From assembly GCA_900315075.1 (NCBI GenBank), contig OMXV01000006.1, positions 1-64,000 on the forward strand: a stretch of 64,000 nucleotides of DNA, written 5' to 3'. The position numbers and the translations under genes are program-made. This DNA comes from an uncultured Prevotellaceae bacterium (GTDB taxonomy: Bacteria > Bacteroidota > Bacteroidia > Bacteroidales > Bacteroidaceae). Positions 59,819-64,000 of the stretch are shown one piece after another. Under the pieces are notes generated by a model. The model was not told the DNA's origin. It searched no databases and saw only the letters and a program-made list of their open reading frames with translations. Each line of letters begins with the position of its first letter. Position 1 is the first letter of the stretch.

Positions 59819-60211
59819 TCATGAACCAAAAAGAAAATAAATAAAAGCGATTACTAAAGGAGCCAGAACGTCAAAGGGTTCAGGAACACCAAGTACAAAA
59901 TGGCAAATTGCAGATAAAAACAAATACAACCCTATGGAAACCAAACAACCAGTTTTTTTTGAACTGTCGTTTGATTTTGAAGAAGGGATGTGATTGTTGT
60001 CGCTTTCAGAACTTTGTGAGCTAATTCTTTCTTCGGTTTGTCTCTCGTTCTGTATGTTGTTTTGGGGAGTAGTAAGACGTTTTTTTAATTCATCAATTTT
60101 CGGATTGTTGATTTTACTATTGTCTCCACTTTTGATAGATTCTTTTTGTGGTTTTCTTACAATAGTACCATCTTCTTTAATAATGAAATTTTGATTATCA
60201 AATTCACTCAT
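59819..60211 (-). CDS. Small membrane protein with an N-terminal DGTIVR motif
   Basis: Unknown protein of 130 residues from ATG 60211. Residues about 9-20 read NFIIKEDGTIVR, a motif shared with three upstream neighbours. A polar, serine-rich linker follows (about 25-80). The C-terminus has two hydrophobic helices (GCLVSIGLYLFLSAICHFVL and PFDVLAPLVIAFIYFLF). It is the last gene of the minus-strand cluster. ATG 60232 would add seven residues. No function can be assigned. Confidence 0.75.
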   Translation of the reverse strand: MSEFDNQNFIIKEDGTIVRKPQKESIKSGDNSKINNPKIDELKKRLTTPQNNIQNERQTEERISSQSSESDNNHIPSSKSNDSSKKTGCLVSIGLYLFLSAICHFVLGVPEPFDVLAPLVIAFIYFLFGS

Positions 60212-60279
60212 ATTATTATCTATTTTGAACACCGAATATAAAATTTTTTACAGCAATATCGTTTACTAAGCTATATATG

Positions 60280-61242
60280 TTATATTCCTATAATAAAGTC
60301 ACCAATTTCAACCTCTTTTGATAAAACTCCTCTAAGAAGTACACGTACATTATCTCCTGGGATTCCTTTGTTTCCATGAGGCTCCTTGATCTCCATGGAC
60401 GTGATTTCTATTGCTACAATTACAGATTGTTTCTTCTTGTTTTTTTTTATTTGAGATGGTAACAAGTTCATGAGCTCTATACTTGCGTTTTTATCAACAA
60501 GATAGACACAATCTCCAACTTGAATGCTGCCACGCTTAATCCTTCCTGTTATCCTTGCACCTTGATTTGTACTTATTGCATAATCAATTTGCATTAATAG
60601 TCGTTCTGAGGACCATTTTTTCAATTCTTTCAATCGATTAATTTTATTGAGTGGGTAATCAGTGTATTTGTTCCCATGAACAGCAGACCTGCGGTACATC
60701 TCTTCTGCTTTTGAATAGTTGACTTCTATGCCAAGATAACCATTCATATAGATGTCACCCATTGTCTCTTCTGCCTTAGCGTTGCATTGATCAACCCCAT
60801 TAGCATAGATTTCAAGCGCTGCACCAACGTCCTCTGGCATTCCGTTCTCACCGTAGCTTAGCATGTGCGCAAGCCGAAGTTTTGCATCCATACCTCCTAC
60901 ATCCACAGCTCTTTGATACCATCTTCTCGCTTCAGATAAATCGTGCCTCGTCTTAAACATGAATATTCCTGCTTCGAAACAGTCATTTGCATCCATTAAA
61001 GACTGTACATCGGGACGGTAGAAAATCGCCATCGCCTCATCTTCCCTGTCGGAACTGTTATAATATAGTCTTCGTGCTTTTTCCAGTAGCTGATTAGGAG
61101 TTGGATTATTACTGCTTTTATTACTGTTTATTCTTTGTCTCAGCTTTTCTATCTTTTCTTTTCTGGGTCTTTCATCAGGACTAAACCTAATAATAGTACC
61201 GTCATCGTTAATAATGTAATCCTTATGATCAATTTTCCCCAT
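60280..61242 (-). CDS. Sel1-repeat protein with an EF-Tu domain 2-like beta barrel
   Basis: An unusual 320-residue cytoplasmic protein. Residues about 7-18 carry the shared DYIINDDGTIIR motif. Residues about 60-195 contain Sel1/TPR-like repeats (EARRWYQRAVDVGGMDAKLR and KAEEMYRRSAVHGN). The last 105 residues match domain 2 of translation GTPases, with ARITGRIKRGSIQVGDCVYL, IPGDNVRVLLRG and VEIGDFIIG. There is no G domain. In EF-Tu that barrel contacts aminoacyl-tRNA and the ribosome; what it does here is unknown. Confidence 0.8.
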   Translation of the reverse strand: MGKIDHKDYIINDDGTIIRFSPDERPRKEKIEKLRQRINSNKSSNNPTPNQLLEKARRLYYNSSDREDEAMAIFYRPDVQSLMDANDCFEAGIFMFKTRHDLSEARRWYQRAVDVGGMDAKLRLAHMLSYGENGMPEDVGAALEIYANGVDQCNAKAEETMGDIYMNGYLGIEVNYSKAEEMYRRSAVHGNKYTDYPLNKINRLKELKKWSSERLLMQIDYAISTNQGARITGRIKRGSIQVGDCVYLVDKNASIELMNLLPSQIKKNKKKQSVIVAIEITSMEIKEPHGNKGIPGDNVRVLLRGVLSKEVEIGDFIIGI

Positions 61243-61293
61243 CTTTTTTGCAAGTTTTTTTGTTCTGATAGATAAGTACTATAAAAAGTAAAT

Positions 61294-61947
61294 TTAGTTG
61301 TTCCCTGTCATGTTGTTATCGTTTATGTATTTGCTTACCCGATAATCCAAAAACTTGGCAATAGTAACAAAGAAAATATAGCCAAGAGCCCCTAAAACAA
61401 ATTCTTGAGATCCAATGAATAACATTAGAAAAAAAATGCCCCAAATTCCTAACCAGATCTTAAACTTATCCGATTTTGTGTCGGTAAAGTGATTCTCATG
61501 GTTCTCAGTTAGGTAATAAAATTTCCCATAAGAACCAATGGCGTGAAGAAGTACCAATATGATAGCGATAATGTATACAAGAATCGAAACACCACCTACA
61601 CCAAAATGATCGAGAAAGAAAGGTGACCAAGCAGATGGGAGTATTGTAATAGATAATGCCGCTCCCAAATATGCAAGAAGAATATATTTTACCAGTTTCC
61701 AAACATGAGCTTTCTTCTCAGCGACTGTGACAAATTGTGCCAATGTACGTACCGTATCAGTCAAATCATCATCATTATTAGAAGAAGAATTGCCTTGTTG
61801 CTGGTTGTTTTCATTCCTGATAATTTCTCCAAACTCATTAATATAATACTCTTGTTGTGGTTGTACTTTCTCTTGCTTTCCAACCAGTCTTTCTTTTAAC
61901 TCACGACGCTTCTTTGCAGCAGCGTCTTCTTCGAATGTCATTCCCAT
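61294..61947 (-). CDS. Multi-pass membrane protein with a degenerate DGTIIR-like motif
   Basis: Unknown protein of 217 residues. A charged N-terminus (KKRRELKERL) precedes YYINEFGEIIRNE near residues 36-48, a weaker form of the motif in its neighbours. An Asn/Gln/Ser-rich linker follows. Then about four hydrophobic segments run from residue 85 to 205 (for example GVSILVYIIAIILVLLHAI and IWGIFFLMLFIGSQ). It lies between the small membrane protein gene and the Sel1 gene, with gaps of about 50-60 bases. Confidence 0.72.
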   Translation of the reverse strand: MGMTFEEDAAAKKRRELKERLVGKQEKVQPQQEYYINEFGEIIRNENNQQQGNSSSNNDDDLTDTVRTLAQFVTVAEKKAHVWKLVKYILLAYLGAALSITILPSAWSPFFLDHFGVGGVSILVYIIAIILVLLHAIGSYGKFYYLTENHENHFTDTKSDKFKIWLGIWGIFFLMLFIGSQEFVLGALGYIFFVTIAKFLDYRVSKYINDNNMTGNN

Positions 61948-62006
61948 AGTTGACTTTTTGTTTTTTTGTAATTATAAATACCTACTTGTGAACTCTGTCA
62001 TAAGAG

Positions 62007-62285
62007 TTAATCCCTTATGATTGTTCCGTCTTCTGCTATTTTGAAACTCTCCTTATTGATGCTATTCCCGGATTTTGATAGTTTCTTTTTCATGGCATCC
62101 ATGCGTTTTTCCAGAGTTGGATCCTTGCTTTTTATTCTATTATTATCGGTACTGGTCTGCTTATCGTTGTAGTATGTCCTAATTTTAGTCTCTCGTTGTC
62201 GTTTTTTCACTATAGCGAGGATTACCAGGAAGGACATGATTACAGCTAAAATTATCAATAATAAAATCATTGCTAATATATGCAT
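62007..62285 (-). CDS. Small single-pass membrane protein ending in DGTIIRD
   Basis: Unknown protein of 92 residues from ATG 62285 (TTG 62303 would add six and overlap the ThiF gene). The first 25 or so residues are one hydrophobic helix, followed by KKRQRE, so the rest is probably cytoplasmic. The motif FKIAEDGTIIRD is at the very C-terminus, unlike in the neighbouring proteins. A peptide at the end of a protein beside an E1-like gene invites comparison with ubiquitin-like tails, but it does not end in Gly-Gly. It begins 10 bases after the ThiF stop. Confidence 0.7.
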   Translation of the reverse strand: MHILAMILLLIILAVIMSFLVILAIVKKRQRETKIRTYYNDKQTSTDNNRIKSKDPTLEKRMDAMKKKLSKSGNSINKESFKIAEDGTIIRD

Positions 62286-62295
62286 TTGCAAATTA

Positions 62296-63441
62296 TTACT
62301 CAATATCTTTTTTCTTCACTTTCTCATCCTTTGGTGCATAAGGTACTTCTATACTTGTGGTATGTTGTAGTGGATATGAGAATATCTCAGCCATTTCGCC
62401 ACCAATTTTAGGATTGTTGGTGTTGCATATTAGGGTGTACTGTGTCAAATGTCCCAACAAACGAGGCGTATAGTTAGGGTTATTGCGATTCAACAGGTCT
62501 ATAGCCAATTTCATGGCAATGATTGTCACGAAGTCTATATCGACAGATATACCGGGTTCGAAAGTGGCCTTGGCTAAGTCTTCCTCGGCAGTATAGAACT
62601 TGCGGTTCTGATTCACGCGGCCAGACGTGTCGCCTAATGCCCATACAAAATCGGAGTAATCTGGCATTCCCTCAGGCAGACAATAGAAGATTTCGCCGGC
62701 GAAGGCTCGTTCCCACATTCCTAACGACATGAAAGGCATTCCAACTTCTTTAGCTATTTTGTTGGCATAAAGGTCACCCTCACGATTGTCGGCACCACCA
62801 ATAACGATGGTGTTTTTGTCGCAGAAGTCATCAAATACCGACAAGGGCACATCCTGTACCTGCATATTCTGCATCACGACCTTCGCCGTGGGGTTGATTT
62901 GGAGAATACGTTCTTTTAGAGCTTGGGTTTTGTATTTACCAACGTCTTTTACCCCACACTGATGGCGGCAGAGATTATGATAGCCAAGGATGTCATTGTC
63001 AATGAGTAGGAAGCGACCAACACCTGCTTTAGCTAATTCCAGCGCTGCCAGACTTCCCACTGACCCGCAGCCGATAAACATAGCCCCTGTCTTGAGCATC
63101 ATATCTGACTCAAGTATTCCTGTATTTCTGGAAAAAACATCCAATTTAAGTGTATAATTCTCAATCTTACACGTTTTTCCCTCAGAATCAAGAAATATTA
63201 GTTTTTCCTTGTCATAATAACCTATAATGTTTTTATCAGGGTTTGTAGTAGGCTTCTCCGCCAAGATATCCCCAATAATGGTAGCATCGGCAAATCCGTC
63301 TCTTGGGGCTGTACCGATGACATTGAAATAGTTGGTGTCCTCTATGATATAGCCATATAGCTTTCCGATATATTTATCATCTTCTAACTCAGCTGGCAGG
63401 CTAATTGTTGTTGTTCTTTTCTTTTTCTTTAGTTTTATCAT
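62296..63441 (-). CDS. E1-like ThiF/HesA/MoeB family adenylyltransferase
   Basis: A 381-residue protein with an E1-type adenylation domain. The nucleotide loop is FIGCGSVGS (122-130). D148 and D150 are in LLIDNDILG, N156 and R159 in NLCRHQ, and K171 and D218 (GGADNR) complete the usual adenylation set. C254 in IFYCLPEG is a possible acceptor cysteine, but the paired-cysteine zinc site of MoeB is not evident. Residues about 20-100 are an extra N-terminal domain that I cannot identify; a degenerate JAB-like fold is a guess. It overlaps the upstream gene by 41 bases, so translation is likely coupled. Substrate unknown. Confidence 0.85.
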   Translation of the reverse strand: MIKLKKKKRTTTISLPAELEDDKYIGKLYGYIIEDTNYFNVIGTAPRDGFADATIIGDILAEKPTTNPDKNIIGYYDKEKLIFLDSEGKTCKIENYTLKLDVFSRNTGILESDMMLKTGAMFIGCGSVGSLAALELAKAGVGRFLLIDNDILGYHNLCRHQCGVKDVGKYKTQALKERILQINPTAKVVMQNMQVQDVPLSVFDDFCDKNTIVIGGADNREGDLYANKIAKEVGMPFMSLGMWERAFAGEIFYCLPEGMPDYSDFVWALGDTSGRVNQNRKFYTAEEDLAKATFEPGISVDIDFVTIIAMKLAIDLLNRNNPNYTPRLLGHLTQYTLICNTNNPKIGGEMAEIFSYPLQHTTSIEVPYAPKDEKVKKKDIE

Positions 63442-64000
63442 TTTTTTCTTTTGTTGGTAGTGTGGATGCCTTTTTTTCTTTTGAGTCTTTATCTTGAGAT
63501 TCTTTATCTTTCTTTATCTCGGTTGTTTGTTGACCATGTGGTACTTCAGACTTTGGCGAAAAAAGCGAGAAAAAAAGATAAATAAGTGTCAATGCACCTA
63601 TTACCATTAGAGTCTTCTCTAATATATGTATTGCTCTTTTTCTATTGTTCGATTTCTCTTTAATATTGACGACCCCATTCTTCGTCGTTGTTTTGGAAGG
63701 ATGCTCTGATGTAGGCACGGTATTTGTCCCTGAGTTTTTTTTTACGTCTTCAGCTTGTATTGAATCTATCTCAGGATGTAGCCCGACTTTTGGATAATGT
63801 CTCAATTCAAAATAAGATTCAGGAATGATATCATCGCCGACTTCGAAATCCACGATATCATACTTCAAGGGATATGCGACATGGCGCATGGTCAAACGAA
63901 ACCTTGGGTCAACATTCACCAATCCAGAAATAGCCCCACAAGGACTGATTGCCGCAAATTTTGCATTTGTTCCATCGTCTGTCCCTGAGAAGTAGTCCAT
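63401..64000 (-). CDS. Partial gene: probable JAMM/JAB domain end, transmembrane helix and charged tail
   Basis: Cut by the window edge; 199 residues are visible, and the first Met may be internal. The start, DYFSGTDDGTNAKF, fits the SxxD part of the JAMM metal motif (H-x-H-x7-S-x2-D), whose histidines would lie outside the window. The next 60 residues could be the C-terminal strands of that fold. A transmembrane helix (LEKTLMVIGALTLIYLFF) lies near residue 135. The tail is Lys/Glu/Asp-rich. Its stop lies 41 bases inside the ThiF gene. A JAMM protein next to an E1-like protein would be a known theme in ubiquitin-like systems. The JAMM call is tentative. Confidence 0.55.
   Translation of the reverse strand: MDYFSGTDDGTNAKFAAISPCGAISGLVNVDPRFRLTMRHVAYPLKYDIVDFEVGDDIIPESYFELRHYPKVGLHPEIDSIQAEDVKKNSGTNTVPTSEHPSKTTTKNGVVNIKEKSNNRKRAIHILEKTLMVIGALTLIYLFFSLFSPKSEVPHGQQTTEIKKDKESQDKDSKEKKASTLPTKEKNDKTKEKEKNNNN

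Follow-up and report, generated by a model that had tools for sequence, protein, structure and literature searches.

A candidate ubiquitin-like conjugation cascade encoded in one operon with a WXG100/FtsK gene set in an uncultured Prevotellaceae bacterium

Bacterial operons that bring together E1, E2 and JAB genes have been described as groups 6a-6e by Iyer et al. 2006 (PMC1779556), and in the cyclic-oligonucleotide-based antiphage signalling systems (CBASS) the E1/E2 enzymes conjugate a cGAS, a protein without the beta-grasp fold, through its C-terminal glycine or alanine (PMC10097602). A ubiquitin-like theme of another kind accompanies WXG100 secretion: an EsaB/YukD-like protein or domain is found in most of the type VII secretion subtypes T7SSa-T7SSj, in a study that covers Actinomycetota and Bacillota (PMC11217815), and these ubiquitin-like YukD/EsaB proteins do not, according to Iyer et al. 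2006 (PMC1779556), become attached to other proteins. WXG genes also occur in mobile systems of Bacteroidetes and other groups whose YueA-like ATPase has three FtsK/HerA domains, only the middle one being active (Zhang et al. 2012, PMC3482391). Here we describe a locus of an uncultured Prevotellaceae bacterium that straddles the end of the analysed stretch of DNA (hereafter the window), namely bases 1-64000 of the 102,451-bp contig OMXV01000006.1. With moderate confidence we read it as a single, probably acquired operon that builds a private conjugation cascade of modifier, E1, E2 and JAMM into a WXG100/FtsK machine.

The original prediction, made from the window, had proposed a possible ubiquitin-like modification locus of six open reading frames (ORFs) lying in one direction with overlaps or short gaps. 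All six are found on the minus strand at the positions given, the JAMM proves to be complete and the adenylation site of E1 is intact; the remark that no E2- or ubiquitin-like protein could be seen is true only inside the window, the E2 gene lying just past 64,000 with the probable modifier fused to it. That reading is hence partly supported, being right about the modification locus and incomplete with regard to the E2, the modifier and the WXG100/FtsK half of the operon, which the window end divides and which continues to 70,856. The whole operon comprises 12 co-directional minus-strand genes, from the FtsK ATPase through a gene for a 137-amino-acid (aa) protein, with gaps of -41 to +59 nt and all 12 frames open, and it encodes an FtsK/EccC-type ATPase, two WXG100-like proteins, two helical proteins, E2, JAMM, E1 and four small or membrane proteins. 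Coordinates past 64000 are those of the contig, whose numbering continues that of the window, and refer to the minus strand; all 12 operon proteins were scanned against Pfam and 10 of them with PADLOC, and transmembrane (TM) segments were called by a hydropathy scan.

Compared with the type 6 conjugation operons of Iyer et al. 2006, the locus has an E1 with an intact site, an E2 with its His and Cys and a JAMM with a complete motif, and groups 6a-6e, above all 6d and 6e, likewise hold separate or fused E1-like, E2-like and JAB genes. In some species of group 6e the poly-modifier forms a fusion with an E2-like domain, like the candidate unit here; in the accessible description, however, that E2-like domain is inactive and the repeats are ubiquitin-like, whereas the present E2 keeps its Cys and carries repeats of ~55 residues ending in GKLA, and no WXG or FtsK partner is given there for any of 6a-6e, unlike what we find. 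Cap2 and Cap3 of CBASS (PMC10097602) show the same kinds of E2 fold, JAMM and E1, and the candidate unit here ends in alanine, one of the two terminal residues used by the conjugated protein of CBASS. Cap2, by contrast, is an E2-E1 fusion, whereas E1 and E2 are here separate genes with JAMM between them, and the locus also departs from CBASS in having a small dedicated unit as candidate modifier and a WXG100/FtsK set as partner. CBASS itself was considered and rejected, there being no CD-NTase among the operon proteins (Pfam 12/12, PADLOC 10/12) and no fused Cap2. The mobile WXG systems of Zhang et al. 2012 (PMC3482391) combine WXG proteins with an FtsK/HerA-type ATPase and are sporadic, as is the case here, where one P-loop was found in the ATPase; E1, E2 and JAMM are not mentioned in the accessible parts of that study. 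The subtypes T7SSa-T7SSj (PMC11217815) have an FtsK/EccC-type ATPase and WXG100 proteins, which the related ATPase and the WXG100-like proteins of the locus resemble, and their ubiquitin-like theme is EsaB/YukD; in our case the ATPase is without a predicted TM segment, no EsaB/YukD was found and a predicted conjugation cascade stands in its place. A pairing of E1/E2/JAMM with FtsK/WXG, or a GKLA modifier, appeared in none of the titles and abstract openings found, subscription papers and preprints lying outside that scope.

The catalytic residues of the cascade are well preserved. The E1-like adenylating enzyme (381 aa, 62296..63441, minus strand) matches PF00899 at E 9.8e-24 and keeps its ATP-site residues in an alignment of six E1 proteins, in agreement with the intact E1-type adenylation domain that had been predicted. 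Its best sequence match in the PDB is MccB, and an MccB-like role was set aside as unlikely because E2 and JAMM adjoin it. The JAMM peptidase (296 aa, 63401-64291, minus strand, of which 63401..64000 lies inside the window) matches PF14464 at E 4.5e-10, in excess of the curated cut-off, and the PADLOC JAB model at 6.2e-12, so that the cut ORF formerly taken for a probable JAMM end is its C-terminal two thirds (199/296 aa). The motif E..HxHx7SxxD is complete (E29, H92, H94, S102 and D105, with S102 and D105 within the window), the HxH looked for past 64000 being present as H92-R-H94-P-G at 64018-64010, that is, 10-18 bases beyond the window end, and the metal residues are kept in an alignment of four JAMM proteins. 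A borderline TM segment at JAMM residues 221-239 may be spurious, since a stretch within E1 reaches the same score (1.63, as against 1.64). Directly upstream lies the gene for a 263-aa E2-like protein (64303-65094, minus strand), which matches the PADLOC E2 model at E 1.6e-11 and keeps the conserved His and Cys in an alignment of six E2 proteins; in a second-look comparison that used a weak model, the best structural match of its E2 domain was the E2 of a CdnG-E2 complex. For the locus as a whole, structural and sequence matches to BubCD were obtained. A profile comparison of the window E2 pair with a distant E2 set gave E 0.0042 at a probability of only 8%. Taken together, the second-look fold match, the PADLOC match and the conserved residues identify the protein as a predicted E2.

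The N-terminal residues 1-109 of this E2 are two copies of a unit of ~55 residues ending I-P-x-G-K-L-A, both on the minus strand: unit 1 (residues 1-59, 64918-65094) and unit 2 (residues 60-109, 64768-64917), each closing with P-x-G-K-L-A. The same modifier-like unit is fused once to the E2 of Stygiobacter (L037, MHAZ01000011.1) and is a free protein in two contigs from virus collections, in both of which it ends APEGKLA and lies 11 bases before the E2 gene, with 63 aa in L083 (IMGVR_UViG_3300022589_001211) and 65 aa in L084 (IMGVR_UViG_2854222423_000004). Across the four close relatives that hold this stretch, namely the window, Stygiobacter L037, L083 and L084, P-x-G-K-L-A ends all five units with P, G, K, L and A invariant (4/4 relatives, 5/5 units), and this C-terminal tail is the best conserved part of the unit. 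Single blastp comparisons of the free L084 protein with the window units gave 2e-12 for unit 1 and 8e-10 for unit 2, and neither of the two free units matched a Pfam family at 0.05. The unit is the best candidate for the modifier, its free and E2-fused forms resembling a modifier and its precursor. In the distantly related system L039 (G486:C47, 3041-4165, minus strand) a small protein stands between E2 and E1 and consists of two near-identical repeats, each ending ITSIVKDGFA, followed by a three-residue extension, a layout like that of a polyubiquitin precursor; the same place is taken in L040 by an 86-aa single-copy protein ending KDGFFM and in L006 by another, of 67 aa, ending DYYTLL, and these small proteins perhaps form a second modifier family.

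The other half of the operon opens with an FtsK/SpoIIIE ATPase of 1266 aa with GYF_2 domains (67056-70856, minus strand; PF01580 1.4e-25, GYF_2 2.5e-10). It is related to EccCa (TIGR03924, 1.5e-24) and to TIGR03928 (7.9e-19), though far below both cut-offs (86.8 bits against 509 and 66.8 bits against 778), and it has one Walker A motif, whose position at residue 759 leaves a long stretch of sequence on either side, and no TM segment found in its 1266 aa; among the ATPases of relatives, a TM segment occurs in L051, L052 and L054 and none in L046 and L053. Two WXG100-like proteins follow, both encoded on the minus strand, the first of 90 aa (66782-67054; PF06013 1.3e-5, 25.8 bits against a cut-off of 27.3; TIGR03930 2.4e-4) and the second of 95 aa (66482-66769; WXG100_2 0.0079 and WXG100 0.012, both below cut-off), and between these and E2 lie, on the same strand, a 280-aa helical protein with a C-terminal cysteine knuckle (65634-66476, no family above cut-off) and a 166-aa helical protein, WXG-like by eye, with the tail RRRGGW (65131-65631, no Pfam family). 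The RRRGGW tail resembles that of a ubiquitin precursor, a likeness that may be due to chance. The Pfam scans of the 12 operon proteins gave no YukD match, and because of this and the ATPase without a predicted TM segment the set is not filed as type VII secretion; it may work in a similar way, and membership is not claimed.

That the two halves belong together is suggested by their recurrence. Searches with E1 led to three further loci: Stygiobacter L037 (50% identity, the one full-length relative in 394 other genomes of the phylum, with two distant matches at E <= 1e-25), L079 (MT836827.1, human faeces; 47% identity) and L083 (47% identity, found in viral contigs with a three-row E1 alignment). 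A homologous FtsK gene starts ~200-300 bases after E1 in L079 (1e-29) and in L083 (5e-37), the pairing standing in another gene order in both. L083 holds E2, JAMM, FtsK, a WXG-like gene (PF06013 0.014, below cut-off), Sel1-repeat proteins that resemble the 320-aa protein of the window and a TM protein with two IGEDGSI hairpins, and in L079 a WXG-like protein is joined to a HELGH metallopeptidase-like region (by eye; Pfam YwqH-like 0.007, below cut-off), while for the first ORF of that contig (193 aa) identity as a JAMM end could not be shown. With FtsK beside E1 in 2/3 testable relatives, the coupling recurs, the third relative being without FtsK; L084 ends at E2 and is not counted here. The comparison of ThiF-homologue neighbourhoods across genomes thus gave a divided answer, the neighbours being similar in L083 and L079 and different in Stygiobacter, and L079, L083 and L084 all come from virus collections, which is a sampling bias.

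Downstream of E1, on the minus strand, four proteins have the motif [FY]xIxxxGxIxR in common, and three of them are predicted membrane proteins. They are a 98-aa single-TM protein (62007..62303) with the hairpin FKIAEDGTIIR at its C-terminus; a 217-aa multi-TM protein (61294..61947) whose N-terminus, AAAKKRRELKERL, is like a helix of the modifier and is followed by YYINEFGEIIR; a 320-aa protein (60280..61242) with the hairpin DYIINDDGTIIR near its start, then Sel1 repeats (PF08238 2.2e-9) and an EF-Tu domain-2-like barrel (PF03144 1.9e-6, 28.6 bits against a cut-off of 30.3); and a 137-aa protein (59819..60232, no Pfam family) with the hairpin NFIIKEDGTIVR near its start and two C-terminal TM segments. 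Sel1 repeats joined to such a barrel are an unusual pair. The strict form DGTI[IV]R is present in 3/4 proteins, as IAEDGTIIR (62014..62039), INDDGTIIR (61187..61212) and IKEDGTIVR (60156..60181), all on the minus strand, and the motif that the original prediction saw in these small proteins is real: its DNA pattern occurs three times in 4.5 Mb, always in the operon, against 0 for the reversed control. Since the pattern was derived from these three sites its own hits are no evidence, whereas its absence elsewhere is, and a longer DNA form was found in 0/200 other genomes of the family. A more permissive pattern at the protein level matched once more among the long ORFs of the window, outside the operon, and once in L056. 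Similar hairpins appear in the TM protein of L083 already mentioned and, once, in a MORN protein of Stygiobacter. Among 45 pairs compared, the N-terminus of the 217-aa protein aligned with the Stygiobacter unit at a local score of 68 (shuffle maximum 44) and with the window units at 47 (shuffle maximum 40), no shuffle of 300 reaching either score. We infer that the hairpins could be docking or acceptor signals.

These elements may be combined into the following scheme. The modifier would be a unit of ~60 residues whose C-terminal tail is P-x-G-K-L-A, produced here as two units fused to E2, from which JAMM would free it by cutting after each GKLA; E1 would then adenylate its terminal alanine, and E2 would receive it on Cys214 and attach it, at the membrane, to components or cargo of the WXG100/FtsK machine, from which JAMM would later remove it again. 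The hairpin proteins (98, 217, 320 and 137 aa) would serve as docking or substrate parts, and the three predicted to be membrane proteins would place the soluble ATPase at the membrane; in this scheme the role of the unit as a conjugated modifier, the JAMM cut site, the substrates, the part played by the hairpins and any export are all conjectural. A wider and more tentative proposal, to which we give a rather low probability, is that a GKLA-tailed modifier without the ubiquitin fold, sometimes made as a multi-unit E2 fusion, controls WXG100/FtsK assembly or cargo entry in several distant groups, with the hairpin on membrane parts as docking or acceptor signal. The locus would allow a direct test of whether ubiquitin-like conjugation regulates a WXG100/FtsK machine, the natural modifier-E2 fusion would let processing be assayed in vitro, and, if the scheme is true, another conjugated protein with a Gly/Ala end and possibly without the ubiquitin fold would be added beside the cGAS of CBASS.

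Several observations weigh against this interpretation. Conjugation is a function predicted from sequence; at E <= 0.001 Foldseek found no counterpart of the E2 model, and the fold match reported above rests on a weak model. The WXG100 scores fall below the curated cut-offs, both CxxC zinc pairs are lost in the window E1 and kept in the other five aligned E1 proteins, and no FtsK or WXG gene was seen in the 30 kb read of the Stygiobacter locus, the sole FtsK match of that genome being partial and lying on a different contig (7.6e-8 over 176 residues). Conversely, neither E1 nor E2 nor JAMM was seen in any of the five loci found through FtsK (L046, L051-L054) in the stretches read, two of these contigs measuring <9 kb, and when those five genomes were searched with E1, three held partial ThiF matches on other contigs and two had no match. 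As regards the unit itself, the predicted model of E2 residues 31-113 has a predicted local distance difference test score (pLDDT) <50, and units 1 and 2 have one strand in common, so that a cut after the first GKLA would deprive unit 2 of its first strand, which is a poor fit to simple bead-like processing.

With a model of such low confidence, the unit could instead regulate E2 or serve as its docking domain, in which case the modifier would be another operon protein, such as the 166-aa WXG-like protein with its tail RRRGG-W, or a host protein. The tail is a feature of the present operon that the positional counterparts of the 166-aa protein in triad-less loci do not have (by eye), and it would give this view a candidate; yet the unit is free in two loci directly before E2 and ends exactly at GKLA, the invariant tail is its best conserved part, and no GG-tailed protein was seen in the L083 system, all of which makes this alternative seem rather doubtful to us.

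A comparably low probability attaches to the idea that the locus serves anti-phage or stress defence of the CBASS/Bil/Bub kind, in which the E1/E2/JAMM triad would put its tag on proteins of phage or host, with the FtsK/WXG set and the membrane proteins as sensor or killing effector instead of an export machine. PADLOC defence models recognise E2, JAMM and E1; the FtsK ATPase is hit by the defence model mad8 (2e-15 in the operon, 1.8e-18 in L083) and, in L083, also by SspH (1.5e-17), though both models cover only the ATPase core. The 98-aa protein matches a PADLOC 2TM effector model weakly (0.023), but no CD-NTase and no effector family above cut-off emerged from the scans of the operon (Pfam 12/12, PADLOC 10/12). 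The sporadic occurrence and low GC of the locus (39.7% against 45.2 +/- 2.1%), and the presence of TerD, or of vWA, kinase and phosphatase genes, near distant plasmid homologues of FtsK, would suit a defence element, while the WXG-like/metallopeptidase-like protein of L079 looks, by eye, like an exported effector.

A decaying, inactive copy in this genome is very unlikely. The loss of both CxxC pairs of E1 speaks for such a view, and against it stand 12 open frames and the retained ATP-site residues of E1, Cys of E2 and metal residues of JAMM. Least probable, though by little, is a chance neighbourhood of two unrelated operons, an FtsK/WXG element and an E1/E2/JAMM element, for even if each occurs alone (L046 and L051-L054; Stygiobacter), the 12 genes share one strand with gaps <=59 nt, and the two elements stand together again, differently arranged, in L079 and L083, two loci to which E1 had led. 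As to the zinc site of the window E1, it looks as if given up in one piece, with the ATP site intact.

The FtsK query found one match at 1e-40 in 200 other genomes of the family and none in 394 others of the phylum, and four at 1e-25 in 392 other genomes of the order, these samples overlapping; the five loci hold FtsK and mostly WXG-like genes, L051 and L052 being short contigs. Since the FtsK/WXG loci are mostly without the triad and the Stygiobacter triad was seen without FtsK/WXG, the two sets are modules that can also occur separately. A TM protein beside the Stygiobacter E2 is homologous (30%, 3e-15) to one in the FtsK/WXG locus L053, from the order of the window. Four plasmid records matched the window FtsK at 1e-20, and distant relatives stand on plasmids of Rhodococcus, Caballeronia and Helicobacter (L055-L058), with TerD (L055), Hsp70/GrpE (L056), vWA, WXG100, kinase and phosphatase (L057) or HNH and SMI1/KNR4 genes (L058) as partners; such FtsK sets seem to swap partners, and E1/E2/JAMM would be one such partner.

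The operon was probably acquired. Its GC of 39.7% compares with the value given above for 11-kb windows of the contig, and beyond its ATPase end lies a divergent FAD-oxidase gene with relatives in 7/19 other genomes of the genus (71-89% identical), from which it follows that the contig is native. In six congeners the system is absent beside the FAD oxidase and other genes stand there (6.6-15 kb read), so that, the flanks being rearranged, no exact empty site could be defined. A scan for Bacteroidetes-type promoters gave one match, against 0.88 expected by chance, and none upstream of the operon.

The operon is of a rare kind. E1 had matches at E <= 1e-10 in 44 of 200 other family genomes, and among the matches listed (50 places) none exceeded 36% identity and each covered part of the protein; 78 other genomes of the Stygiobacter family, some shared with the phylum sample, gave no match at 1e-50. 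Against genome contigs the single E1 query found nothing and the two-row E1 alignment found Stygiobacter and two distant matches, and in viral contigs the single E1, two-row E1 and two-row E2 queries were without match, the three-row E2 alignment finding L084 and the L083 contig and the JAMM and L083 FtsK queries the L083 contig only. No phage matched the L083 E2 or the L083 DNA, and no plasmid matched the E2 queries, the L083 FtsK at 1e-60 or the DNA of the L079 contig. The window E1 matched 141 plasmid records at <60% identity, none covering 80% of the query (20 listed), the L079 E1 two and JAMM three. Two of these JAMM matches, 44-46% identical to that of the window, lie on Gloeothece plasmids (L080, L081); after each comes a large protein with a WD40 annotation, and neither E1 nor E2 was noticed within the 20 kb read. 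The third, from Hymenobacter (29%), adjoins a ThiF protein. To the left in L083 lie genes that resemble, by eye, those for terminase and portal proteins, and L079, an unannotated record named Bacteriophage sp., carries a serine recombinase, a tyrosine recombinase, FtsK and E1 (by eye), a gene content that looks more like an integrative element than a phage.

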